33,026 nt of DNA, taken from a virus. Below the pieces are notes generated by a model that was given only the letters and a program-made list of their open reading frames with translations, was not told the origin of the DNA and ran no database searches. Shown here one piece after another: positions 5,620-24,405 of the stretch. How positions within the stretch are numbered: position 1 is the stretch's first letter; each line of letters starts with the position of its first letter. Made by a program: the position numbers and the translations under genes. The stretch covers positions 1 to 33,026 of the IMG/VR virus record IMGVR_UViG_3300047319_000924; one strand, 5' to 3'.

Positions 5620-6714
5620 ATGTGTACCGGCGCGGAGATTTCCGCCGCCATGGCAGCCGCCGCGCCCTATATCGCGGCGACTTCGGCGGCGGTGGGCGTG
5701 GGCGGAACGGTCTATGGCGCGGCCCAGTCGTCCGCCGCGCAGAGCCGCGCGGCCCAGGCCCTCCGGGACCAGAACCTCGCCACCAGTCAGGCGCAAAATC
5801 AGGCGTTCAACCAGCGCATGGCGGCGACACGGGACCAGTCCAACGCGCAGTTCAATACCGCCCAAACTGAGAACGCCGCGAGGATCACCCAGGCGGCGGC
5901 GACCCGTCAGGCGCAGATGAGCGCGCTGGACCGGCAGAACCAGACCGTCACCGCCGAGAACCAGACCGCTGACCAGTTACGCGCCGCCGCCGATGCGCGT
6001 GCGCAGGAACTGCTCCAGTCCACCACGGCGCCCGGCGGCATGGACCAATCCCAGCAGGGCGCCCAGGATCAGGCGGCGGCGTTGCTCGCCGCGTCCCAGG
6101 CCCCTGGTCCCACCGGTCCCGTCGCCACCAACCCGGACGGGTCCGGCGCGTCCACGTCCACCAATGACCCCGTGATGAAGACGGCGCTGGCCCGGCGCAT
6201 GGGGATCGCCGCCGCCAACATACGCCAGTATGGCGCCGACATCGCCAAAGTCGCCAGCTATGGTCAGCCCTTGCAGGACACGGGACAGGCGATCACCGAG
6301 AACCGGACCGCCATCATGCCCGAACAAGAGGCGGCGAAACTCCTGGCGAGCGGATCGGCGGTGCGTTTGCTGCCCTCGCAGATCGCCTATCGGAATGCCA
6401 CCGACTATGGCGGCGCGGTGGATCAGGCGATCCAGGCCAAGGCCCAGGGCGAAAACACCTACGCGGGACTGAAGTTCGGCAACGTCACGGGCGGCGCCAA
6501 CCTGGGCCAGTCCGACGCCGACACCGCCGCCGCCAACAAGGCGGCGCAAGCCAAGGCGGACACCGCATGGCAAACCCAGGTCGCCGGGCTCTACTCGGGG
6601 CTGGGCAACCTGGGCGCCTACGCCGCCGGGCGTTACGGCCCGGCGATCCTGCCCGGCGCCAGCGGGCAGACGCCCTCGACCATCGACACCAGTGGTTACA
6701 AAATAGGGGCCTGA
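5620..6714 (+). CDS. Internal virion protein, gp14-like, second copy
   Basis: This 364-residue protein again opens Met-Cys-x-Gly (MCTG). Residues 7-35 are Ala-rich and hydrophobic (AAAAPYIAATSAAVGVGGTV), as in ejection proteins that must enter the host envelope. They are followed by a Gln/Ala/Asn-rich coiled-coil region to about residue 140. The second half has mixed helices (ALARRMGIAAANIRQYGADIAK) and a Gly-rich C-terminus with a weak hydrophobic segment. It lies 12 bases after the previous stop and 3 bases before the next start, so these genes form one transcript. It resembles the preceding protein in its start and composition, which suggests an old duplication or two partners in one channel. 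No catalytic motif is seen. Confidence 0.65.
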   Translation: MCTGAEISAAMAAAAPYIAATSAAVGVGGTVYGAAQSSAAQSRAAQALRDQNLATSQAQNQAFNQRMAATRDQSNAQFNTAQTENAARITQAAATRQAQMSALDRQNQTVTAENQTADQLRAAADARAQELLQSTTAPGGMDQSQQGAQDQAAALLAASQAPGPTGPVATNPDGSGASTSTNDPVMKTALARRMGIAAANIRQYGADIAKVASYGQPLQDTGQAITENRTAIMPEQEAAKLLASGSAVRLLPSQIAYRNATDYGGAVDQAIQAKAQGENTYAGLKFGNVTGGANLGQSDADTAAANKAAQAKADTAWQTQVAGLYSGLGNLGAYAAGRYGPAILPGASGQTPSTIDTSGYKIGA

Positions 6715-6717
6715 ACC

Positions 6718-8610
6718 ATGCCGATGTTCGCCACGGGTAACGCCGGCTGGGACCAGGGCCTGAACAGCCTCGCCGGGAGTTTGTTCCCAGATCCGTCCAA
6801 GCAGGCCCAGGCCGGCTACTACGGCGCCGAGACGGCGAAGACCTTGCTCGACGCCCAGCGTTTGCGTGACGAGAAGGGCTACCGGGACAGCCTCGCGCGC
6901 CAATACCACCTGGACGGGAACGGCCAACCCATCGCCCCGGCGACCCCTCCAGCCGCCGGTCCGCCGCCGCTCGCTGACACGGTGGCGCCCCCGGGACCGC
7001 AACCCTTGGCGATCACGCGGCCAAACCTACCGCCGGCAGGCCCGGCGCCGCCGGACACGCCTTCGCCGGGACCGCCGTCCGCCGTCACCCCGGCGGCTTT
7101 GAACGCGGCGGGTCCGATGCCCGCGCCCAATACCGCCCCTGCTTCAGCCCCGCCGCCGTCGCCAACCTCAACGGCGCCCGGCGGGGGCGTCGCCACGATG
7201 AGCCTTCCGCAGCTTATCGCGCTGAGCCTGTTGGGGGGCCAGCACGCGCCCGAAGCCTCGTTGCTGGCGCGGGCTGAACTGGTCAACCGGGTGCGAACCG
7301 GCCAGATCGCCAATGACCCGGCGCAAATCAACCGGGAGCAGTCCGCCCTGGGCGACAGCCAGCCGCTCCAGTCGGCCACGACGATCCAGACCACGGGCAT
7401 GAACAACGCCACGACCCTGGCGAACACCCGTTTGCAGGGCCAGAACGCGATCAATCTGGCTGATAACGAGATCATGTCGGTGGTGCCGATAGGCCAGAAT
7501 GTGCCGGTCTCCAGGACCAAGGGCTACATCAAGGCGCATCCCGAGGAGTTCAACGCCTACGACAGCGCCCGCGCGGTGGCGGGCGACACGCCCAGGACTG
7601 TTTCTTCGGTGCCCGGCAGCACGACGGCGCCGCCCGTCACGGTTCCACAACGGGATAGCTACAACAGAACGCCTTACGACGAGAACCAGGCCCGGGACGA
7701 CGCCAAACCCGTCACGGTCATAGGCCCGCCATCGGCGCGGTTCCCCAACGGCAGGGGCACGATGACAAAGGGCGAGTTGCGCCAGAACCCGCAATACACC
7801 GAGGAAAACGCGCCGGACGCGGTGATCGGCACCCAGGCCACGCCCGAGGGGCCAAGATCGGCCCGCGCGGGTGGGATGGCCAACCAGGGCGCGACGCCTG
7901 TCCCGTCCAGCACCGACGCGCTGAACGCCCAGCGTCAGGCTGAAATCGCGGACGCGATACGCCGGGGGGACTATGACCTCGCGAAGACCCTGACCGACGC
8001 GATGCAACAGGCGACCGGCGCCACGCAGCCCAAAGGCGCCGTGTCCCAGAAGGAGAGTCAGGCCACCGACCGGTTCCTGGACGACAACTTCGCCAAGATG
8101 TTCCCGGTCCCGGCGCGTCGGGACTGGGGGCAGACCGACCTACCGGCGACGATGGACCCCGCGACCAAGGCTTACGCCACCGAGCGGATGCGCGAACTGT
8201 CGCTCACCGACCCGAGATACCGGTCCGACCCCAACGCCGCCGCCATCGCCGTGTTGGAGGAAATGCGCGGCCAGGGCGTGTGGGCGCGGAAAGGCACCGG
8301 GGACCGGAATGTCGGCGTGATGTCCGGCTGGGGGTTCCAGGGCGCCGACCAACTGACCGGCGGGGACAAGCCTCGCTACATCGTCAAGGGCGATCTGAAA
8401 GGCACGGGCAGGCCGGCGGCGCCGCCGAAACAGGCCGGGCCGCGTGTGGCGCAACCCCCACCCGGCGCGCTGGGACCGGCCCCGCCGGGCGCGGTTGAAG
8501 GCCAGACCGGCACTGGCCCGAACGGCGTCAAGGGCATCGTGCGCGGCGGCTGGATGATGCCCTTGCAAGACGCGGCTTCCGGTATGGGAACCGGCGGGGG
8601 CGGCGGATGA
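6718..8610 (+). CDS. Pro-rich internal or structural virion protein
   Basis: This 630-residue protein starts at an ATG three bases after the previous stop. A short N-terminal domain (residues 1-65; GYYGAETAKTLLDAQRLRDE is a clear helix) leads into a long Pro/Ala linker (about 70-158). A helical middle part follows (LPQLIALSLLGGQHAPEASL near 162-181), then an Asn/Thr/Gln-rich region, a helical segment around 400-510 (LNAQRQAEIADAIRRGDYDL; ATERMRELSLTDPRY), and a Pro/Gly-rich end. In the T7 order this slot belongs to gp15, a large ejection protein, so a scaffold or channel role in the ejectosome is likely. No enzyme motif is present and I cannot name a family. Confidence 0.6.
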   Translation: MPMFATGNAGWDQGLNSLAGSLFPDPSKQAQAGYYGAETAKTLLDAQRLRDEKGYRDSLARQYHLDGNGQPIAPATPPAAGPPPLADTVAPPGPQPLAITRPNLPPAGPAPPDTPSPGPPSAVTPAALNAAGPMPAPNTAPASAPPPSPTSTAPGGGVATMSLPQLIALSLLGGQHAPEASLLARAELVNRVRTGQIANDPAQINREQSALGDSQPLQSATTIQTTGMNNATTLANTRLQGQNAINLADNEIMSVVPIGQNVPVSRTKGYIKAHPEEFNAYDSARAVAGDTPRTVSSVPGSTTAPPVTVPQRDSYNRTPYDENQARDDAKPVTVIGPPSARFPNGRGTMTKGELRQNPQYTEENAPDAVIGTQATPEGPRSARAGGMANQGATPVPSSTDALNAQRQAEIADAIRRGDYDLAKTLTDAMQQATGATQPKGAVSQKESQATDRFLDDNFAKMFPVPARRDWGQTDLPATMDPATKAYATERMRELSLTDPRYRSDPNAAAIAVLEEMRGQGVWARKGTGDRNVGVMSGWGFQGADQLTGGDKPRYIVKGDLKGTGRPAAPPKQAGPRVAQPPPGALGPAPPGAVEGQTGTGPNGVKGIVRGGWMMPLQDAASGMGTGGGGG

Positions 8611-8650
8611 GCGCGGTAGCATCTCATGTGAGTGAGCGGAGCGAACGAAC

Positions 8651-9220
8651 ATGAGCGGCATCGACGATATGATCCGGGGCGCCGCCGAGAAATACAACCT
8701 GGATCACGACATATTCCGCCGCCAGTTGGTGGCCGAAAGCGGGCTCAACCCGAACGCGCGCAACCCGTCCGGCGCCGCCGGCATCGCGCAGTTCATGCCT
8801 GGGACCGCGCGCGGTATGGGGATCGACCCGATGGACCCGGCCCAGGCGATCCCGGCGGCGGCGCTCTACATGCGCCAGAACCTGAACAAGTTTGGCGGCG
8901 ACTACACGCACGCGCTCGCCGCCTACAACTGGGGACCGGGCAACGTATCGCGGAACGGCGTGGGCAACCTACCCTCCGAGACCCGGAACTACATCGCGAA
9001 GATCATGGGCGGCAGCGGCGGCGGTCCCCCGGCGCCGGCTGGCCCACTCCCATCAGCGGGACCGGACGCGCCAGCCGGACCGTTGATGGCGGCGGCGGCG
9101 CCGGACGGTCCTCCCCTTCCCATGCCGCCGCCGCCACAAGATCCCGCCATCGCGGGCGCGCCCACGTCGCTGGCGGACGCTTTCACCCAGGCCGCGCGGC
9201 GCGGTCAGGGTCTCGCATAG
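8651..9220 (+). CDS. Virion lytic transglycosylase (SLT domain)
   Basis: This is a 189-residue protein. Residues 5-120 form a soluble-lytic-transglycosylase/goose-lysozyme-like domain: catalytic Glu29 in LVAESGLNPNARN, the GIAQFMPGTARGMGID motif (about 44-59), and AAYNWGPGNV (about 96-105). The rest is a Pro/Ala-rich tail. It cleaves the glycan strands of peptidoglycan without water, giving 1,6-anhydro ends, and would open the wall during DNA entry. In T7 this domain is the N-terminus of gp16; here it is a separate gene whose stop directly abuts the start of the giant ejection protein. No signal peptide is seen, which fits delivery in the virion. A purine-rich stretch (GAGCGGAGCGAAC) precedes the start. 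Confidence 0.88.
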   Translation: MSGIDDMIRGAAEKYNLDHDIFRRQLVAESGLNPNARNPSGAAGIAQFMPGTARGMGIDPMDPAQAIPAAALYMRQNLNKFGGDYTHALAAYNWGPGNVSRNGVGNLPSETRNYIAKIMGGSGGGPPAPAGPLPSAGPDAPAGPLMAAAAPDGPPLPMPPPPQDPAIAGAPTSLADAFTQAARRGQGLA

Positions 9221-12200
9221 ATGCCGCCGCCGCCTTTGGACGGCTGGACGATGGACCCGCCGCCGGGACCGGAGCCTGTCAGTGCGCCGGCCAACGGCGG
9301 CTGGGCGATGGACCCACTTCCGGCGACCACGCCAAACCCCGCCCCGGCGCCCGCCACATCAGCGAATGGCTGGACGATGGACCCGCCTCCGGTGACGACC
9401 ACGCCGGCCCCTGTCCCGGCGCCCGCCACGTCCGCCACGTCGATGCCGCAGCCCATGCCGATGACCGATCTGGGGGCGATCTTCACGCCGCCGCCAGACC
9501 CCAACGCGCCGCCGGAACCGCCTGACACGCGCCCGGGGTTTGTCTCGGGTGTCCTGGGCGGGCTGGGCGCCGCCGGGCGGGAAGCGAAGCAACTGGCGGC
9601 GGGCGATGCTTTCACCGCCACCGAACCGCCCCCACCGCAGCCCGAAAGGACGCTCATGGGCCGGGTGGGTTACGGCGTGGCGCACAGCGCGCCCACGCTG
9701 GGCGGCATGGCGCTGGGCACGTATCTCGGCGCGGCGGCGGGCACCCCGGCGGGACCATGGGGGACCACCCTGGGCGGACTGGGCGGCGGCGCGCTGGGCG
9801 GGTCTCTCACCGACTTCGCCCAGAGCCTGATACCCGCTTACGAGGACGCGCTGCGCCAGGGCCTCGACCACGACGCCGCCGTCAATCAGGCATATCACGT
9901 GGCCGAAGCGTCTGGCGCCTTCACGGGCCTGACCGCGCCCTTGTTCGGTCTCCGCGCGGTGAAATCCATGGTAGGCAATCTACTGTTCCACGCCGCCGTG
10001 ACCGGTCCCGGGACCGGCGCCGTCAAGCAGGGCGTGATCGACCCCGCCATCACGGGCCAGCCGACGCCGAGCGCCGACGAGATGCTTCAGGGCGCCATCG
10101 AGAACGCCATCGGCGGCGGTGTCGCCGGGGGTGTGATGCACTACGGCCAGCACTTCGGGGGGCAACTCGCCACGCGGCTGCGCGGCGGCGCTACCACCAG
10201 CGGCGATGGATCAGGAACAGCGCCACCACCGTCAGGACCAGGGACGCCCCTGACAGCACCAGCGACAGAACCACCGCCCATTCCATCGCGACCCACGCCT
10301 TTCACCGATCTGGTCCGTCCCCCGCCCGAGGGCGTGGCGCCGGGCGAGGCCGTGCCGATCACGACGCCGACGCCTGAGCCCCCACCCATACCACCAAGGG
10401 AGACACCCCCGGATGCTATCACAGCCCAACCCCGTCCCGGCGAACCCACCGCCGCCCCTGTTATTCCCGAACCGCCCGCCGCCGTCCCGCCCGGTGAGCC
10501 AGCCGGCACGGAAACCGCCCGTCCTGGTATGGAGCCGCCCGCCCGTCCAACTGGAACTATTCCCGTGGATGAAACCCGGCCAGGACAACCGCCTGAGCCG
10601 GGCGTCGCTCCCGGCGTGGTTCGACCCGAGCCAGCCCTTGTTGCCCCGGAGCCCCCAACCCCCGGTGTAGAGCCTGGAACTGAGCCGGGCGCGCACCAAC
10701 CCGGCGCGCCCCTGGCCAACGGCTTCTTCACCGGTCCCGAGCCAGGGGACAGGTTCCGTGTCGGGCCAACCGCTTCAGTCAATGGCGCGCTTCTGCTCGA
10801 AAAGCGGAGCGGCGGTGGAAGCGTGTCGAGTTTCTTTCTCGGTAAGGACGGCAACCTGATCGACGCGGATACGGTCCGCTTAAATGATGCCGCGAGCCGT
10901 GACAGACTTTGGACGCCGGAAACGCCGGAACACGCGGCGGCGGCTACCGCGATCCTGCAAGAGATGGGCGCGCTACCGCTCACAGCGCCGCGACGGCTTG
11001 AACTTCGGGCGCGACTGCGCCGGCTCGTAACCGGCGAGGAACCACCCGGGACAGCACCGGTCCCGGGACAGGCCGAACCTGTCCCGGGACAAGCCGAACC
11101 CAGAGGAACGATAGCCAAACCGATCCCGATCACACCGGAACCGACCCCGTCACCAGAGTCCACGCCCCCAGCGCACGAAACGCCGGGCACCCCCGCCTAT
11201 AAGCTGGGTGAACTGGACCGCGCCAACGCCCCAGACGAAGCCTACCGCGACGCCCTTTCGACGGGGTCCAAGGACCCGCTCAAACCAGGCGAGACATGGC
11301 GGGACCGGCTCGTTAAGTGGGTGGACCAGGAACGCGCCGCCGCGACCGCCGGGGAACCCGAGACTTCCGCACAAGGAGCGAACGCACCGGGAACAGTCCC
11401 GGCGCCGCCCGCCGCAGCCGAGACGCCCACGCCTGTCGCCGCGCCCCAAGCGACTGAAACCCCACGCCCGGGGGATTACACCTACACCCCGATGAATGTG
11501 GACGAGCCCACCACGGACAAAGTCTTCTATCACGGCACGAAAGCGCCCATCGCGAAGCTGGCGGACGCCGACATATACTCGTTCAGCAACACCGGGAACC
11601 TATATGGCCATGGGCTGTATTTAACCGATCACCCGGAAGTCGCGCGGTCTTACTCCGAAGTAAAAGGGCGGGGACCCCCGGGCAAGGTTTTCGCCGCGCG
11701 GTTGCACGACCTGAAGCTGTTGGACCTGGACCGGCCCGCGCATCCCGATCTTGTCGCCGCGTTCCGTGACGCCGCCGGGGATTACCTCCCGGAACACCTC
11801 GACGAGGGCCTGACCGGCAAGGACCTGTTCGAGGCAGTAAAGGAGAACATGCGGGACGACGGGCTGACGCGTGATGAAGCGTCAGAGGTTCTTTATGGCG
11901 TCGCGCATAACCTCGACGAGCGAGGCTACGACGGCTTTCGCCACGAGGGCGGCGGGATCAGAGGCCGCGAGCATGGCAAGCACAACGTCGCCATACTGTT
12001 TGAAGCGGGGGCTTCGGTGGACGGGCGAGAGGTTGGAAAGCCTGTCGGATCGAAGTTCACGGAGATCAAACACCCTGGCGCGCGGCTGGCGGACCAGGAA
12101 CCACCCGGCACCCTGGAGTCCCGCGCGAGCGGTCCCGTATTCAAGCCGGTTCCAAAAGACTGGCGCTTCGACGCCGAGCCCGCCACCCCGGATGGGTATT

Positions 12201-15200
12201 CAACCCTGACACTGAAAGACGCCGCCGGGGCGGTGCAATATAAAGCCCAGATCCTGGAAGACAGCCCAGGGGTTTTCGGGCTGGGTCAGGTTGAAAACAT
12301 CTCCCGGTCGCAAAGAGGCATAGGCCCCGCCTTTTACCGTGACATAGCGGACCACGTGAACGCTCTGGGCGGCAAACTCTATGTCGGCATAGACGCCACG
12401 CCCCCCGCTCAGAACGTGCATGTCACGTTGGACAAAGCAGGGGCTTTGCGTAAAGTTTCGCCTGAAGAAGTCATCAGGGATCAATCAAGATCGGCTGACG
12501 CGGCTGGGATGTCCGCCAAGGAAGTGCGCGCCGAAATCGCGGATCGGAACATCTACGAAGTCTTGCCGAGAGAACCGCGCCTGACCGACCAGGAAGCGCC
12601 CGGCACCCTGGAGTCCCGCGCGGGCTTCCGCCGTAAAGCCCCGGCGCCGGGCGAGCCACCGCCTTTACCGCCTCGCACGCACGCCCCGACGCGCAAGGAC
12701 CCGGTGGTCACACCCCAGGTGGGCGATCCGCTCACGTTCAAGGACTACGCCTACAGCGAGGGCACGCCGGCCTATCGGGACGCGTTCCACGACGCGCTGC
12801 GCGGGACCGGGACCGACCCTAACACCATGACCAACCGGCCCATCGCGGAACAGGTCAAGGTCCTGGGCGACGCCCTGAAGACCAAATACGGCTTCGACAA
12901 GGTCGAGATCGACCCCGGCGTGGAGCACAAGACCACGCGCGATCAACTCCTGAACATGCACCATAACATGCAAAACATGGCCCACGCGCTGGGCTGGAGC
13001 CAGGAGACCATCGCGCTGAACGGCAGGCTGGGCCTGCATCTGGTGCCCTACAACTTCAAAGGCGAAAACTGGTTCGGGTCCTACAGCTTCGCGGACAAGA
13101 CGATCCATATTTCGGGTGGATCGAACTCCTACGCGCACGAACACTGGCACGCCATCGACGACTATATGACCGATCTGCTGCACGCCAACCCGAACAAGAA
13201 AGCGTTGCTGTCCTGGAACGCCCGGGACGGCGCGCTTGACCCGTCCGATCCCGTGCAAAGCGCGTTCGCCCGCGTACTGAACGCCATGTCCTACAACCGG
13301 GGCGAGGAAATGCTGCGCCGGTTAAAGCTGGAGCAAACCGCCCAGAAAGTCACCAAAGCGGGACAGCCCACCAAGAGCGCGCTGGCGGCGCGGGCTGAAA
13401 TCGAGAACCTGGACAAAGGCGCGTCCCGGCTGCGCATCCCGCCGTCCGACCTCAGAACCGCCGCGCTGAAGGGACCCAACCCCCAATATTGGGCCAGCAT
13501 CCATGAACTGTTCGCCCGCGTGGGCGAAGCCTTCACCGCCCATAAGATGGAACAGATGCACCTGGACCCGTCCGGCGTGGTGACGCCCGACAAGGGCTAC
13601 CAGGACCGGATGCTGGCCGAAGTCCTGCATCGCTACCCGGACGCGGGCGACAGGCGGGAGATGTTCAAGGCGTTCGCGGATCTGGTCACGGAACTGGATC
13701 ACGCGTCGGTCCTGAACCGGGGCCTGCCCCCGGCGGAACGGACCTCCGAGGCGCACACGCTCAAACCCTGGTCCCAGCGCCCGCCTGACATCAGGCCCGG
13801 CATGATGACGGCGATCCGCGAGGACCTGAAGTCGCTACGCTGGGCCAACCTGTTCGGTAAAAACGCGGGCCACGAGCCCCTGTTCCATGATCCCGACGCG
13901 CCCGCCGCGCCACTGGATTACTCCGGTTTCGGCAAGACACGGGGGCTGGTCTCGCCGGTCATGCGGCCCATCGTCGGTAAAGAGGCGGGACCCTTTTCTG
14001 GGACCGGCGAGAGCGCCCGGCGGATCTGGTATTCAGCCCTGGGTAATCTTGAGGATATCCGTGACAGGGCGCCGCCCGCCGCGCGGAAATACATCCAGCG
14101 CATCCGGGACCGCATCGGGACCGATCCCGAGTCAGGGCGCCTCATCGGCCAAACCTACGCGGAACGTGTCCGCTACGACGAGCAGCGCGGCGTGGCTCAG
14201 TTTGCCGACATCTTCCGGGACAATGGCATCGTCCAGAAGGTCACGCGCCGGCCCCAGTTGACCAATCTCCAGGACGCCATGGTGCGGCACGTGCTGACCA
14301 CGGGCGAGACCAGCTACCCGCGCGACGCGCACGACCTGACCGGCGCCGGTCCCAGGACCCAGATACCGCCGGAACTGGTCAAGGTGGCCCACGAAATCCG
14401 GGGCAAGACCCTGGACCCGCTCTACGACCGGATGAAAGCCGCCGGGATGGACATCGGCTACGCCAAAAGCGGTTATTTCCCCAGGTCCTATAACGACCGG
14501 AACATACTGAGCAACAAAGACGAGTTCATCCACGACAGGGCTCGCCTCAACCGTTTCATCTTCGACAAAGACCTTGGCGCTATGCCCGACGACGCCGCCA
14601 AGGCCGGGCGTTTGCACAAATGGTGGACCGAGACCCCCGACGCCGTGCGCCGAAGCGGGCTGTTCCCGAACGACACGCGGACGGCCATGGCCCAGTTGGG
14701 CCGTAACCTGCGGCGCATCGGCGAAATCGACCGGGAACTGGCGGCGGGACCAGGGGGGCCGGGGGTGAACCCGACCACGCACGATCCCATCGCCCTGGGC
14801 GCCGAGCGGGAAGGACTGCGCGTGGAGAACGCGAACATCCATGACCAGCACATGGAAGCCGTGCGCGACCCGCTGGCGCACCACGAGGCGAACAACGTCT
14901 TCAACCAGATCGCGGACGGCAATCCGCTCAGGTTCACCACGCTGGGACCGGACAGCCAGTTCACCCGAGGCCGGGTGCTGCCGCCCGAGACCGACCAGAT
15001 CATGCGGCGCTGGATGCACACCAAGGTCCTGGACACGATCCCGCACTACATCGGCGGGGTGTCCCGCAAGGCCGCGTATCAGGAGATGTTCGGCAAAAAC
15101 GGCGAGGCCAACGCCCAGGACATCAGCGACGCCCGAGCCAACGGGATGCACGGGTCTTACTCGGATCAGATCCACATGATTATCGAAGCGGTGACGGGCA

Positions 15201-16900
15201 GATCCGCGCGCACCACCGACGCCGGGATGACCCAGGCCGCGTCCCTGATTTCCACGCTGGGACAGACGATGCTCTTGCCGGGGGCCGCGCTCAGCGCGAC
15301 AGCCGAGCCGTTCGGGAGCGTGCTGGCGGCGCCGAGAGTCGGTCTCGGGTTCAAAACCATGTTCGGGACCTACGCGCGGATGGGCAGCGCGATGTTCGGG
15401 AAGGGCGACGCCGCCGAGCGCATGGCGACGCTGCGCTTCATCGGCGGCGTCAAGGACAGTCTCCAGGGCGCCGCCGCCGCGACCCGGTTCAGCGACTACG
15501 CCGGGACACCCGGACTCCAGCGATACAATAACGCGTTCTTTGAAACGACGGGACTCAGCCCGGCGATCCGCTGGATCAGGTCGGCCACCCTGGGCACGTT
15601 CCCGATGTATACGAAAACCCTCTTGAAGTGGGCCACCGAGCCGGCCACCGGGGCCAAGGCCCTGGCCCGCCAGGATGACGCGCGGATCGCGCTGCGGGAC
15701 CTGTTCATCTCAAACGAGCAGATGCCCGCGATGCGTGACTTCGTGAACCAGTTCCCCGACCTGCCCACGCGGGACGCGCTTGAGAACCACGACATGGGAC
15801 CGCTCTGGCAACTCGCCGCCAACCGCTTCCTGGACCGGTTCAACCAGGACCCGACCGCCGCGCAGAAGCCCCTGGGGGGCCTGCGAAGCCCCACGATGAA
15901 CATGGTCCAGGGGCTGACATCCTACCCCTGGACGTTCTGGCGCAATATCATGGAACCGGCGCTGCACCGCGCGGCGCGGGCCAATCAGCGCGAGTGGGAC
16001 CGGCGCACGGCGGCGGGCGAGGACGGCGCCGGGCGCGAGTTCCAGGCGGCGGCGGCGCGGTTCCAGAACTACGTGGCGACCGCCGCTGGCGCCGCCGCGC
16101 TACTGGCCGGGACCGGCCTGATGTGGATACCCCGGCAATACCTGTTCAACAACTCGCTCTGGCAAAAGCACGAAGACGCCGGGGATGTGGAGGACTGGCT
16201 GCTGAACGGCGCGATCAGCGCGTCCGGGCTCGCCGGTCCCCTGGATATGTTCAATCAGATGCTGACTTCGCTCCGCTACACCACCGACCTGTCCAACGCC
16301 GTGGAAGGCCCCTACCTGGGAACCATCATGCGCAACGCCATCGACGTGGTCCGGGGCATCGGCCACGTCGTCACGGGCACCGCCACCGGTTCCAACGTCG
16401 AGGTCTACAACGCCATCCTGGGGCTGGAGCAACTGGTGGTGAAACCGGGGATGCTGGCGGGGCTGACCTACATCGCCAATCGCGTCCCAGCGGGTGGCAT
16501 GCTCGCCGGGTTGCTCACCACGATGGCGGTCACGGCCACGTCGCAGACGGCGATGCGGTCCCTGGCCGATGCCGCCGCCGGACCCAAGGGCGCCACGGTC
16601 AAGCCACCGCCCAAGGACGGCGAGGAAGACGACGCCGAAGACAAGCCGGAACCCGATCCCCCGACCGACCTGGAGGAAGCGGACGCCGCGCGGGCGAAGA
16701 CGAAGACCGGGTCCGGCGAAGGGGCCACGTCCTTGCTGGTGGGCCTGAGCGACGACATTCTGCCGCCCCTGATGAAGCTGGTGCCTGGGCGCGCCAAAGC
16801 CGCCATCGCGGCGCTCATGGCGGCGGGCGGCGTTGGCGGGCTGCTCTACCAGGGGCATCAATACAAGACCCAGGGCGAGCCACCGGCCAAGGCTCATTGA
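9221..16900 (+). CDS. Giant polyvalent ejection protein with ART-like and zincin-like domains
   Basis: This is a 2559-residue protein starting right after the transglycosylase stop. Domains in order: a Pro-rich start with three GWxMDP repeats; a Gly/Ala-rich hydrophobic region (about 145-310); long Pro/Thr linkers; an ADP-ribosyltransferase-like domain (about 765-930) with YHGTK (Y770-H771-G772), GHGLYLT and a C-terminal NVAILFE strand; a second alpha/beta module (about 985-1100); a zincin-like metallopeptidase domain with H1306-E-H-W-H1310 and a downstream ELFARVGEAF helix (E1429, E1436) that could supply the third ligand; long helical regions; a hydrophobic segment near 2281-2305; and an acidic Asp/Glu linker near 2470 before a last hydrophobic helix. 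The layout matches polyvalent proteins, which are injected with the genome to modify or protect against host factors. The position matches T7 gp16. Enzyme activities are inferred. Confidence 0.8.
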   Translation: MPPPPLDGWTMDPPPGPEPVSAPANGGWAMDPLPATTPNPAPAPATSANGWTMDPPPVTTTPAPVPAPATSATSMPQPMPMTDLGAIFTPPPDPNAPPEPPDTRPGFVSGVLGGLGAAGREAKQLAAGDAFTATEPPPPQPERTLMGRVGYGVAHSAPTLGGMALGTYLGAAAGTPAGPWGTTLGGLGGGALGGSLTDFAQSLIPAYEDALRQGLDHDAAVNQAYHVAEASGAFTGLTAPLFGLRAVKSMVGNLLFHAAVTGPGTGAVKQGVIDPAITGQPTPSADEMLQGAIENAIGGGVAGGVMHYGQHFGGQLATRLRGGATTSGDGSGTAPPPSGPGTPLTAPATEPPPIPSRPTPFTDLVRPPPEGVAPGEAVPITTPTPEPPPIPPRETPPDAITAQPRPGEPTAAPVIPEPPAAVPPGEPAGTETARPGMEPPARPTGTIPVDETRPGQPPEPGVAPGVVRPEPALVAPEPPTPGVEPGTEPGAHQPGAPLANGFFTGPEPGDRFRVGPTASVNGALLLEKRSGGGSVSSFFLGKDGNLIDADTVRLNDAASRDRLWTPETPEHAAAATAILQEMGALPLTAPRRLELRARLRRLVTGEEPPGTAPVPGQAEPVPGQAEPRGTIAKPIPITPEPTPSPESTPPAHETPGTPAYKLGELDRANAPDEAYRDALSTGSKDPLKPGETWRDRLVKWVDQERAAATAGEPETSAQGANAPGTVPAPPAAAETPTPVAAPQATETPRPGDYTYTPMNVDEPTTDKVFYHGTKAPIAKLADADIYSFSNTGNLYGHGLYLTDHPEVARSYSEVKGRGPPGKVFAARLHDLKLLDLDRPAHPDLVAAFRDAAGDYLPEHLDEGLTGKDLFEAVKENMRDDGLTRDEASEVLYGVAHNLDERGYDGFRHEGGGIRGREHGKHNVAILFEAGASVDGREVGKPVGSKFTEIKHPGARLADQEPPGTLESRASGPVFKPVPKDWRFDAEPATPDGYSTLTLKDAAGAVQYKAQILEDSPGVFGLGQVENISRSQRGIGPAFYRDIADHVNALGGKLYVGIDATPPAQNVHVTLDKAGALRKVSPEEVIRDQSRSADAAGMSAKEVRAEIADRNIYEVLPREPRLTDQEAPGTLESRAGFRRKAPAPGEPPPLPPRTHAPTRKDPVVTPQVGDPLTFKDYAYSEGTPAYRDAFHDALRGTGTDPNTMTNRPIAEQVKVLGDALKTKYGFDKVEIDPGVEHKTTRDQLLNMHHNMQNMAHALGWSQETIALNGRLGLHLVPYNFKGENWFGSYSFADKTIHISGGSNSYAHEHWHAIDDYMTDLLHANPNKKALLSWNARDGALDPSDPVQSAFARVLNAMSYNRGEEMLRRLKLEQTAQKVTKAGQPTKSALAARAEIENLDKGASRLRIPPSDLRTAALKGPNPQYWASIHELFARVGEAFTAHKMEQMHLDPSGVVTPDKGYQDRMLAEVLHRYPDAGDRREMFKAFADLVTELDHASVLNRGLPPAERTSEAHTLKPWSQRPPDIRPGMMTAIREDLKSLRWANLFGKNAGHEPLFHDPDAPAAPLDYSGFGKTRGLVSPVMRPIVGKEAGPFSGTGESARRIWYSALGNLEDIRDRAPPAARKYIQRIRDRIGTDPESGRLIGQTYAERVRYDEQRGVAQFADIFRDNGIVQKVTRRPQLTNLQDAMVRHVLTTGETSYPRDAHDLTGAGPRTQIPPELVKVAHEIRGKTLDPLYDRMKAAGMDIGYAKSGYFPRSYNDRNILSNKDEFIHDRARLNRFIFDKDLGAMPDDAAKAGRLHKWWTETPDAVRRSGLFPNDTRTAMAQLGRNLRRIGEIDRELAAGPGGPGVNPTTHDPIALGAEREGLRVENANIHDQHMEAVRDPLAHHEANNVFNQIADGNPLRFTTLGPDSQFTRGRVLPPETDQIMRRWMHTKVLDTIPHYIGGVSRKAAYQEMFGKNGEANAQDISDARANGMHGSYSDQIHMIIEAVTGRSARTTDAGMTQAASLISTLGQTMLLPGAALSATAEPFGSVLAAPRVGLGFKTMFGTYARMGSAMFGKGDAAERMATLRFIGGVKDSLQGAAAATRFSDYAGTPGLQRYNNAFFETTGLSPAIRWIRSATLGTFPMYTKTLLKWATEPATGAKALARQDDARIALRDLFISNEQMPAMRDFVNQFPDLPTRDALENHDMGPLWQLAANRFLDRFNQDPTAAQKPLGGLRSPTMNMVQGLTSYPWTFWRNIMEPALHRAARANQREWDRRTAAGEDGAGREFQAAAARFQNYVATAAGAAALLAGTGLMWIPRQYLFNNSLWQKHEDAGDVEDWLLNGAISASGLAGPLDMFNQMLTSLRYTTDLSNAVEGPYLGTIMRNAIDVVRGIGHVVTGTATGSNVEVYNAILGLEQLVVKPGMLAGLTYIANRVPAGGMLAGLLTTMAVTATSQTAMRSLADAAAGPKGATVKPPPKDGEEDDAEDKPEPDPPTDLEEADAARAKTKTGSGEGATSLLVGLSDDILPPLMKLVPGRAKAAIAALMAAGGVGGLLYQGHQYKTQGEPPAKAH
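12092..12127 (+). repeat. Direct repeat flanking a domain cassette, copy 1
   Basis: This 36-base segment encodes DQEPPGTLESRA. It matches 12587-12622 at 34 of 36 positions, and the copies are exactly 495 bases (165 codons) apart. It lies inside the giant gene at the end of the ART-like domain. Confidence 0.85.
12587..12622 (+). repeat. Direct repeat flanking a domain cassette, copy 2
   Basis: The second copy encodes DQEAPGTLESRA and lies in the same frame. Together with copy 1 it brackets one alpha/beta domain of the giant protein, as expected if the domain was gained or duplicated by in-frame recombination. Confidence 0.85.
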
Positions 16901-17280
16901 CGCCGGGCTTGTCCTGAACCAACACAATCTCAGAACCTGGGACCGCAACGGATTAACCGTGTCTTATCAACGGTCCATGGTTTCGTATGCGGCATAGTGC
17001 AAGGAAATTGCAGTAAGTAACCGGACCAACATGATAGAAACACCCTATATATGAGCATGATACAGCCTGTGTGTCGGGTTTCGATTTACTTCGTGCTGAA
17101 CCAGATCAATATCGCGGAACAAAACATTCGATCCTGTTGGTTTCTCGTAATGTCGGCGGGTATCCTGGGTTTTCTGATGTATTGGTTTCAGTGTCTTGTT
17201 AATGTTTGTGCGGTGTATCAGGTGATTTTCCAAGCTGATTTCCAGCACGGATTTAACTACGGAACGAAAGGATCAACAGC
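16901..17280. other. AT-richer gap between convergent operons
   Basis: This stretch separates the end of the late operon from the end of the replication operon. It is visibly less GC-rich than the rest, particularly 16970-17260. Open frames exist (for example plus 17051-17437 and minus 17045-17248), but they lack a convincing ribosome binding site, show no family pattern, and one runs into the polymerase gene. Nothing certain is seen; a small RNA or the remnant of an inserted gene is possible. Confidence 0.5.
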
Positions 17281-22927: not shown

Positions 22928-23524
22928 TCACTTGTCCTTGTCGGCTGTTTCGTAGAGGGGCAGGAGTTCGCTCGCCTTGCGGCGAAAGGCACGCATGATG
23001 CGCTGATCCAAAGACCCAGGCACATACAGGAAACTCGCCAGCACCGGGCGGACCTGCCCCATCCGCCACGCTCTGGCGATGACCTGTTCATTTTCGCCGG
23101 GGACCCAACTGGGTTCGACAATGCCGATATGCGCGGCGGCGGTGAGCGTGATCGCCGTGCCCGCCGCTTTGATCTGTCCTATGAAGACCCGGGTCGCGGG
23201 ATCGTGCTGGAACCGCCGGACCGCGATAGTCCTGTCCCGGGTCGCCGTGGCGCCCGTGATGGTTACAGGGTTAAAGTCCAATAATAGTTTCCCCAGCGTG
23301 GCGATGACCTCCACGTGCCACGCGAACAGCAGGATTTTATCAACGCCAGTATTTAGCTTTTCCCGCGCCCACTCCGCCGATGGCGCGGCCTTGGCCTCGC
23401 CCAGCATACGGCGCAGGGTCGCGAGATGTAGTTCTTCAGACTGTAACAGTTCGGGCAGCGCGTCCACCGGGACGGCCATGAGCAGATCCGTGATATCCCG
23501 TTGGGACAGGCCGGGCGCGATCAT
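22928..23524 (-). CDS. SNF2-type helicase, C-terminal lobe
   Basis: This is a 198-residue protein covering the second RecA-like lobe of an SNF2 helicase. It has KILLFAWHVEVIATL (motif IV area), VTITGATATRDRTIAVRRF, FIGQIKAAGTAITLTAA (motif V), and ARAWRMGQ (motif VI, where QxxRxxRxGQ is usual). Its ATG overlaps the stop of the N-terminal-lobe gene as ATGA. The lobe is incomplete alone and must pair with the preceding product. Upstream of the ATG this frame remains open and reads as a basic helical stretch, so a single frameshift would join the two halves. Confidence 0.8.
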   Translation of the reverse strand: MIAPGLSQRDITDLLMAVPVDALPELLQSEELHLATLRRMLGEAKAAPSAEWAREKLNTGVDKILLFAWHVEVIATLGKLLLDFNPVTITGATATRDRTIAVRRFQHDPATRVFIGQIKAAGTAITLTAAAHIGIVEPSWVPGENEQVIARAWRMGQVRPVLASFLYVPGSLDQRIMRAFRRKASELLPLYETADKDK

Positions 23525-24405
23525 GGCGCGCCGGTCCTGGCGAAGCCTTCTCCGAAGGAGCCGGGACCATGACGAACCAGCAAGGGCACGTCTTCGACCT
23601 GCAACGGAGGAAGTTCGCCCAACACATCACGCCGCCGACGCCGCAGAATGACCGGCGCGAACGCCTCACGCAAAACGTCCTGTCCCTGGGACCCGTGGAT
23701 GCTTCGGCCCCAGGCGCCGTCCGTGTATTTGGTGTAGCGTTCCTCAAAGTCGGTCTGCCCCAGGGACTTGCCATCGGGGGTCAGCAGCAGGTCGGGCCAG
23801 AACGTCCTGTAATGCGGGAACAACTCGCCCGCGTGGTTGGGCGTGGGCGAGCCCGTGAGCAACAACACCCTGTTCGCCGTGGACTGTATGCCCCGGTGCC
23901 CGAACCTGTCCCCGTAGATCGCCCGGGTGCGGTTGGACGAGCCTTCCTTGAGGTAGTGGGCCTCATCCAGGATCAGCAGGTCCCAGGCGCGTTCGCGCAA
24001 CGGCCCGGCCCAGCGGCGCATGGTGGCGCCGTGGCTGAACGTATCATAACTCAGGATCAGGAAAATCTGGTCGTCCAGCAGGCTGTCCGGGAACGCGTTG
24101 TGCGACGGGACGCGCGCGTAGTGCGCCATCTCGGGCCACCACCTGCGTATCTCCAAAGGCCAGGACACGCGGCCTATGGCCGGCGCGATGGTCAGGACGC
24201 GCGACGCGAACAAAGCTTTCGCGATCAGGATGGCCTGGAGGGATTTACCCAGGCCCGGGTCATCCGCGAGCATCGCCGCGCGGTGTCCCACCTGTGCGTT
24301 AACCTGTGTGTTGTGTGTATGTTTTGGGGACAGAACGTCCAACACGAACTTCACGCCGTCCAGTTGGTAGGGTCGAGGCGACGGGACAAGTCCCTGATTT
24401 CGCAT
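23521..24405 (-). CDS. SNF2-type helicase, N-terminal ATPase lobe
   Basis: This is a 294-residue protein with the first RecA-like lobe: a Q-motif-like RPYQLDGV (residues 11-18), Walker A DDPGLGKS (48-55), the DEAH box at 147-150 (LILDEAHYLKEG), and motif III LLLTGSPTPN. It continues to ILRRRRRDVLGELPPLQVED and then stops. Full-length phage SNF2 helicases of this kind have about 450-500 residues in one chain, so the protein is the front half only. The reader should treat this and the next gene as one helicase in two pieces. It would remodel or unwind DNA during replication or recombination. Upstream of the ATG lies a short GAGG site. Confidence 0.83.
   Translation of the reverse strand: MRNQGLVPSPRPYQLDGVKFVLDVLSPKHTHNTQVNAQVGHRAAMLADDPGLGKSLQAILIAKALFASRVLTIAPAIGRVSWPLEIRRWWPEMAHYARVPSHNAFPDSLLDDQIFLILSYDTFSHGATMRRWAGPLRERAWDLLILDEAHYLKEGSSNRTRAIYGDRFGHRGIQSTANRVLLLTGSPTPNHAGELFPHYRTFWPDLLLTPDGKSLGQTDFEERYTKYTDGAWGRSIHGSQGQDVLREAFAPVILRRRRRDVLGELPPLQVEDVPLLVRHGPGSFGEGFARTGAP

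Follow-up and report, generated by a model that had tools for sequence, protein, structure and literature searches.

Gene setting and conserved chassis

The analysed stretch of DNA (hereafter the window) is a linear IMG/VR virus record of 33,026 bases that is possibly a fragment. Its gene content points to a temperate, T7-like podophage; there are genes for a major head protein, tail proteins, a transglycosylase, a PolA-type polymerase, a Gp2.5-like SSB, an exonuclease, a helicase, RuvC, an integrase, and a primase. An initial annotation of the window described a 2559-residue protein in the position of the gp16 ejection protein. The corresponding reading frame (9221-16900) is uninterrupted and lies where T7-like phages keep their last ejection protein, and its ATG is located at the base right after the stop codon of the transglycosylase gene. 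The two genes and the conserved portions of the giant protein are as follows.

8651..9220, plus strand: lytic transglycosylase gene, 189 aa (Pfam SLT, E 1e-20; phrog_342)
9221..16900, plus strand: giant polyvalent ejection-type protein, 2559 aa (gp16-like position behind head/tail and transglycosylase genes; PHROG matches)
9242..9391, plus strand: three copies of GW(T/A)MDP(P/L)P, aa 8-15, 27-34, and 50-57, a candidate docking/packaging tag
9548..10210, plus strand: N-terminal conserved chassis, Gly/Ala-rich, aa 110-330 (alignments and blastp with relatives)
13991..16630, plus strand: C-terminal chassis, aa 1591-2470, with hydrophobic segments near 2285-2303 and 2422-2440

The transglycosylase matches phrog_342 (“internal virion protein with endolysin domain”) with an E-value of 1e-29 over profile positions 14-154 of 1235, and is the counterpart of the N-terminal endolysin part of T7-gp16-type proteins, which here forms a separate gene. 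The giant protein has no match to phrog_342; its C-terminal part matches the PHROG virion structural proteins phrog_6958 (E 7e-14) and phrog_684 (E 2e-6). Hydrophobic segments are clear toward its C-terminus and weaker toward its N-terminus. A profile of the C-terminal chassis had no meaningful match among solved structures, T7 gp16 included. In a set of 50,697 phage genomes a related protein occurred in just one record, Microcystis phage Mae-Yong1326-1 (27.5% identity across half the length), and many further relatives were present in viral contigs and bacterial genomes.

The N-termini of these proteins carry short repeats in two or three copies, whose motif differs by phage (GWTMDPPP in the window, LPDFDKLVPLG in L002, LIPADEWxPV in L006, and NPFADLVP in L020) and even among otherwise close relatives. 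Such repeats were observed in L002, L005, L006, L018, L020, L040, L049, and L066, and a repeat within the first 120 residues was found in 25 of 33 proteins, compared to 0.8% of shuffled sequences and 4% of internal stretches. A role as docking or packaging tag may be considered for this element.

Two further features of the gene setting deserve mention. Directly upstream of the transglycosylase lies a gene of 630 aa (6718-8610), whose counterpart in L003 has 768 aa; the first residues are common to both and the rest much less so, although the flanking genes are 92-97% identical. Judged from this comparison, it appears to be a second fast-changing virion gene. A SWI2/SNF2-like helicase at 22928-24405 consists of two overlapping minus-strand reading frames (23521-24405 and 22928-23524). 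The same split occurs in the relative L010 (L101 1988-2944 and 2941-3549) and thus is probably not a sequencing error.

A slot of variable content and its ART and GNAT-like domains

Comparison of the window with L010 by blastn aligned 8458-11410 to 5895-8868 (88% identical) and then 12576-16975 to 8864-13193, so that the flanks are contiguous in L010 where the window has 11411-12575. This slot and its surroundings contain the following elements.

11411..12575, plus strand: slot content of ~1.17 kb, absent from L010
11510..12040, plus strand: ADP-ribosyltransferase (ART) domain, aa 764-940, with H771, Y800, and D904 (profiles, AlphaFold model)
12092..12127, plus strand: boundary linker copy 1, DQEPPGTLESRA, aa 958-969, between the ART and the GNAT-like domain
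12143..12565, plus strand: predicted GNAT-like acetyltransferase domain, aa 975-1115 (AlphaFold, Foldseek, VIA)
12587..12622, plus strand: boundary linker copy 2, DQEAPGTLESRA, aa 1123-1134, common to L002 and L003 at the 3' edge of the slot

The slot is empty in L003 as well as in L010, and L002, whose gene is otherwise 97-98% like that of L003, holds a different domain of approximately 150 aa. A different and possibly ART-like domain occupies the slot in L002, L040, and L051; the L002 cargo matched the ART profile weakly (hhalign probability 58%, E 1e-4) and had no ART match in the PDB or Pfam. In L006 and L011 the slot contains a DdrB-ParB domain (77.3 and 76.4 bits, respectively; cut-off 27.6), and the same assignment was made for L008 through its similarity to L006. 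Among 39 homologues ddrB-ParB was found in 19 and ART-PolyVal in three, the window protein included. The neighbouring genes of relatives with differing slot content are roughly 83-97% identical in DNA. At its 3' boundary the slot ends in the linker DQExPGTLESRA, a further copy of which separates the ART from the GNAT-like domain in the window, and at the DNA level the two copies are nearly identical. As a pattern in sequence, this is the trace that an exchange by recombination at the linkers would be expected to leave. A separate module of about 110 aa, unnamed and without Pfam match, lies in the cargo region of L011 (8449-8829) and L013 (8443-8847); by eye it seems common to both, whose chassis proteins are otherwise divergent.

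The ART-like domain had been annotated on the basis of Y770-H771-G772 and GLYLT, and both motifs are located as described (the latter at 798-802, extending to GLYLTD at 798-803). An ART fold with intact key residues is predicted by AlphaFold as well as by sequence profiles. The Pfam family ART-PolyVal was matched weakly by the full-length protein (E 0.005), and the isolated domain obtained 24.7 bits (PF18760; E 4.4e-5, profile positions 6-125 of 140), which falls short of the curated cut-off of 31.2 bits; the domain is consequently filed as a member of the ART superfamily only. A scan for the motif (HGT, a gap, and a GLYLTD-like sequence) yielded 18 stretches and from them an alignment of 11 rows, in which Y770, H771, and G772 are invariant and conservation at Y800 and D904 is 90% or more; some circularity is inherent in this set, as the scan motif came from the window protein. 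A profile made without the window protein, run on about 50 proteins, matched its residues 764-933 with 47 bits (i-E 7.8e-15), with most members of that profile still fetched by the motif from the window protein. When the PDB was searched with the ART profile, 27 of the 28 hits were ART-superfamily chains (best E 0.0028), including diphtheria toxin, PARP10, and cholix and relatives.

In the AlphaFold model of the ART half, the core blocks mostly reach a pLDDT of 78-90 and strands are located at 767-773, 799-802, and 905-910. The H-Y-[D/E] pattern (H on strand 1, Y on strand 2, and D/E on strand 5) is present as H771, Y800, and D904, the last of which would be the catalytic acid. Among PDB entries, this model was matched best by a chain from the pre-ejectosome of cyanophage A4 (chain B; Z 12.5, rmsd 3.3, 158 residues). 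By sequence, the nearest relative is found in L095 (27-29% identity) within a protein of 1480 aa that matches phrog_342 with an E-value of 2.6e-63. Scans with the single ART sequence retrieved no homologue from viral contigs, from eight related genomes or records, or from 289 genomes sampled from the class of a Devosia relative, and show little as they were run with no positive control; a search of the phage collection gave weak ART matches only. The 3040-aa protein of L029 (4285-13404) has a different chassis, with a zincin at 1658 and then an ART-like motif at 1869 (profile match of 41 bits), which is the opposite order to that in the window protein.

The labels of the PHROG matches would also suit an ordinary structural protein of the tail or head, which would not be ejected at all and whose domains would act in assembly inside the producing cell, and P1 DdrB is known to be processed prior to packaging (PMC5512222). 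We consider this highly improbable for the giant protein, given its gp16-like position beside a transglycosylase gene, the location of the closest ART relative inside a gp16-family internal virion protein, and the fold match to a pre-ejectosome. Based on gene position, the gp16 context in L095, and this fold match, the giant protein is likely ejected together with the DNA.

Adjoining the ART domain, residues 975-1115 form a second domain that is absent from the initial annotation and had no family match in Pfam, PHROGs, or NCBIfam. The duplicated linker and the optional nature of the insertion had likewise gone unnoticed there. In the model of the second domain, four strands are followed by a GxG loop that leads into a helix, then by another strand and another helix. 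Foldseek assigned it to a GNAT with a probability of 1.00 (E 5.9e-4), VIA aligned it with GCN5 (Z 9.3, 120 residues, rmsd 3.6), and practically all listed matches of both tools were GNATs or GNAT-fold proteins. A GNAT fold is thus highly probable, at a strength set by the single input sequence and the middling model confidence of about 60-80. The putative acyl-CoA loop is SQRGIG (1030-1035); compared to the pattern (Q/R)xxGx(G/A) it has the GxG and, as its first residue, Ser instead of the usual Q/R. No relatives of this domain were detected in the viral contigs, the class sample, or the related loci compared.

The zincin and its relation to LPD1

12842..13720, plus strand: zincin-like metallopeptidase, aa 1208-1500, with HExxHxxD at 1306-1313 and a Glu helix at 1427-1445
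13478..13702, plus strand: Pfam LPD1 match, aa 1420-1494, apparently the half of the zincin that contains the Glu helix

The HExxH motif at 1306-1310 (HEHWH) and the downstream Glu helix (1427-1445, with E1429 and E1436) are real features of the protein, as initially proposed, and model and profiles agree in predicting a zincin-like fold with intact key residues. Structure prediction, suggested at the outset as a check, returned both ART and zincin architectures. In 39 homologues H1306, E1307, H1310, D1313, Y1423, E1429, A1432, R1433, and E1436 are invariant, E1429 and E1436 being the only invariant acidic positions downstream of HExxH. A chance occurrence of the motif was rejected on the basis of its invariance. 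The probable third zinc ligand is E1429, 119 residues past the motif and inside Pfam LPD1. The zincin model (pLDDT 85.5, pTM 0.88) has a helix at model positions 141-158 that carries HEHWH and follows short strands, and a second helix at 264-282 that carries E1429 (model position 266) and E1436. Its 19 best matches in VIA were lethal factor structures, followed at Z 7.1 by 4l7a, a putative zinc metallopeptidase, and at a Z of about 6 by PPEP zinc proteases, and the matches down to rank 50 besides lethal factor were mostly zinc proteases. The top Z of 8.6 is modest and near the level that the tool calls ambiguous, and VIA was used with caution. Foldseek alone found no significant match of the zincin in the PDB, and the best PDB match of the zincin profile A5 was again lethal factor (E 0.02).

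LPD1 (PF18796) scored 26.4 bits on the isolated region, 0.6 under the curated cut-off of 27. Since the match begins at the second, Glu-carrying helix, LPD1 appears to represent the C-terminal half of the zincin in this protein, and its interpretation as a separate domain here was rejected. Pfam LPD1 in general may be the Glu-helix half of polyvalent-protein zincins. A widespread clade of phage metallopeptidases (MPTases) has an Asp three residues past HExxH (PMC5512222), and this residue is present as D1313, invariant in 39 sequences. The His typical of that clade at the end of strand 2 is missing, the window having GSYSF at 1286-1290, and for this reason the zincin was not placed in the clade.

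Against the four nearest relatives, dN/dS was estimated at 0.20-0.24 in the zincin core and at 0.48-0.56 in the C-terminal chassis; against two more distant relatives, the estimates were 0.26-0.47 and 0.70-0.77, respectively. By these estimates the zincin appears as the most constrained part of the giant protein. L068 and L072 have retained the C-terminal chassis, and a six-frame search of both with the zincin profile gave no match, indicating that the zincin is not indispensable and was either lost there or gained elsewhere.

Loss of the key residues in close relatives had been named as possible evidence against the annotated domains. For the zincin, the residues proved invariant; the ART domain is wholly absent from several relatives. 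Decay of the ART residues was considered and rejected, as the whole domain is missing instead, and an ART that is absent and not decayed in close relatives is best described as optional cargo. The optional nature of the ART and the structural pre-ejectosome protein that is its best fold match would be compatible with both folds being structural relics, that is, pre-ejectosome scaffolding without an enzymatic role. This is improbable in view of the intact key residues of both domains, the invariance of the catalytic zincin residues in all 39 homologues, and the purifying selection on the zincin.

The same conservation bears on the target of the protease. The zincin itself could act as an effector, cutting defence or transcription proteins of the host once inside, next to ART and GNAT as additional effectors; its fold resembles protease toxins and Pro-Pro endopeptidases, and this option was kept open by Iyer et al. 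(2017; PMC5512222). We nevertheless regard it as unlikely, because the zincin is the most conserved domain and is retained as the cargo changes, in contrast to the variable or absent effectors of the slot. Purifying selection of such strength would be less expected in an arms race, although a conserved host target could still account for it. Of the injected protein that modifies or cleaves host proteins, as envisaged in the initial annotation, the domains are thus upheld with regard to fold, and action of the zincin on host proteins is the less likely reading.

Proposed working and comparison with known systems

According to the reading that we favour as probable, the phage, a temperate podophage of the T7-like kind, encodes a polyvalent ejection protein in which a virion chassis carries an integral zincin and a slot for exchangeable effectors. 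The giant protein would be packed in the head and leave it with the DNA, after or along with the transglycosylase, and the chassis would aid DNA delivery. The zincin may have a maintenance role as a protease by which parts of the protein are trimmed or set free, either in virion assembly or after entry, with the Pro-rich linkers or the adjacent conserved boundary motif DQExPGTLESRAGFRRKAPAPGEP as conceivable cut sites. Once freed, the ART and GNAT-like domains could attach ADP-ribose and acyl groups to macromolecules of the host within the first minutes of infection. Packaging, ejection, catalysis, cleavage sites, and every target are given here as we infer them. Since the zincin stays while the cargo changes, it was assigned to the chassis, and most likely serves its processing or release, with ART and GNAT as optional early effectors. 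A more far-reaching version, in which whole effectors are swapped into and out of the slot by recombination at the conserved linker DNA, the zincin cuts at that linker and so frees the effector present, and the repeated, phage-specific N-terminal motif directs the giant protein to the virion of its own phage, has a rather small probability in our estimation; if true, it would describe an injected-effector delivery device with interchangeable payloads.

Iyer et al. (2017; PMC5512222) have already described polyvalent proteins of phages that combine ART with zincin, or have ART adjoining GNAT, so that the domain mix is not uncharacterised as initially supposed. The same authors proposed that the MPTases of these proteins process or release protein parts. 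With the published polyvalent proteins (PMC5512222) the giant protein shares the very large size and virion association, the unrelated enzyme domains with a zincin as hub, the ART, the GNAT beside it, ddrB-ParB (here in relatives), and the Asp after HExxH; it differs in that its ART and LPD1 score below the Pfam cut-offs. T7 gp16 and phrog_342 proteins resemble the locus in the position as last ejection protein, the lytic transglycosylase (here in the neighbouring gene), the C-terminal hydrophobic segments, and the nearest ART relative, which in L095 is built into a phrog_342 protein. In contrast to gp16, the window protein is about twice as large, with the transglycosylase split off, enzyme domains inserted, and a C-terminal profile without detectable similarity to the solved gp16 structure. 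For T7 gp16, the central part, flanked by two membrane segments, is thought to reach the cytoplasm of the host (PMC8954989).

The pre-ejectosome chain matched by the ART model (PDB 9k3a chain B) is ORF27 of Anabaena phage A-4L, a protein of 1717 aa. Its gene likewise follows capsid and tail genes, and it contains the domain with the fold predicted for the window ART, with a YHGT motif near 1425, but it has neither significant sequence similarity to this ART nor a match to the zincin or C-terminal chassis profiles of the window. T4 Alt is also an ART packaged in the head, with a presumed immediate action on proteins of the host (PMC5512222); it belongs to the R-S-E clade, whereas the window ART is of the H-Y-D type and is a single domain within a giant protein. 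The best fold matches of the zincin model, anthrax lethal factor and PPEP-1, have 12-16% identity to it, and this likeness is one of fold alone that implies no common substrate.

In the literature searched, no description was found of the window chassis and of the variation in slot content that its close relatives display. The giant protein adds a good new example to the known polyvalent class and does not represent a novel type of system. What it contributes is the occurrence of one slot in both empty and filled form in closely related phages, a GNAT-like domain that the family libraries searched do not recognise, and the likely identity of LPD1. One and the same slot is empty in some close relatives and in others holds ART and GNAT, ParB-like, or other contents, and with this natural series the role of each injected domain and the host defence or process that it counters become testable. 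The series further points to the zincin of polyvalent proteins as a function of the chassis.
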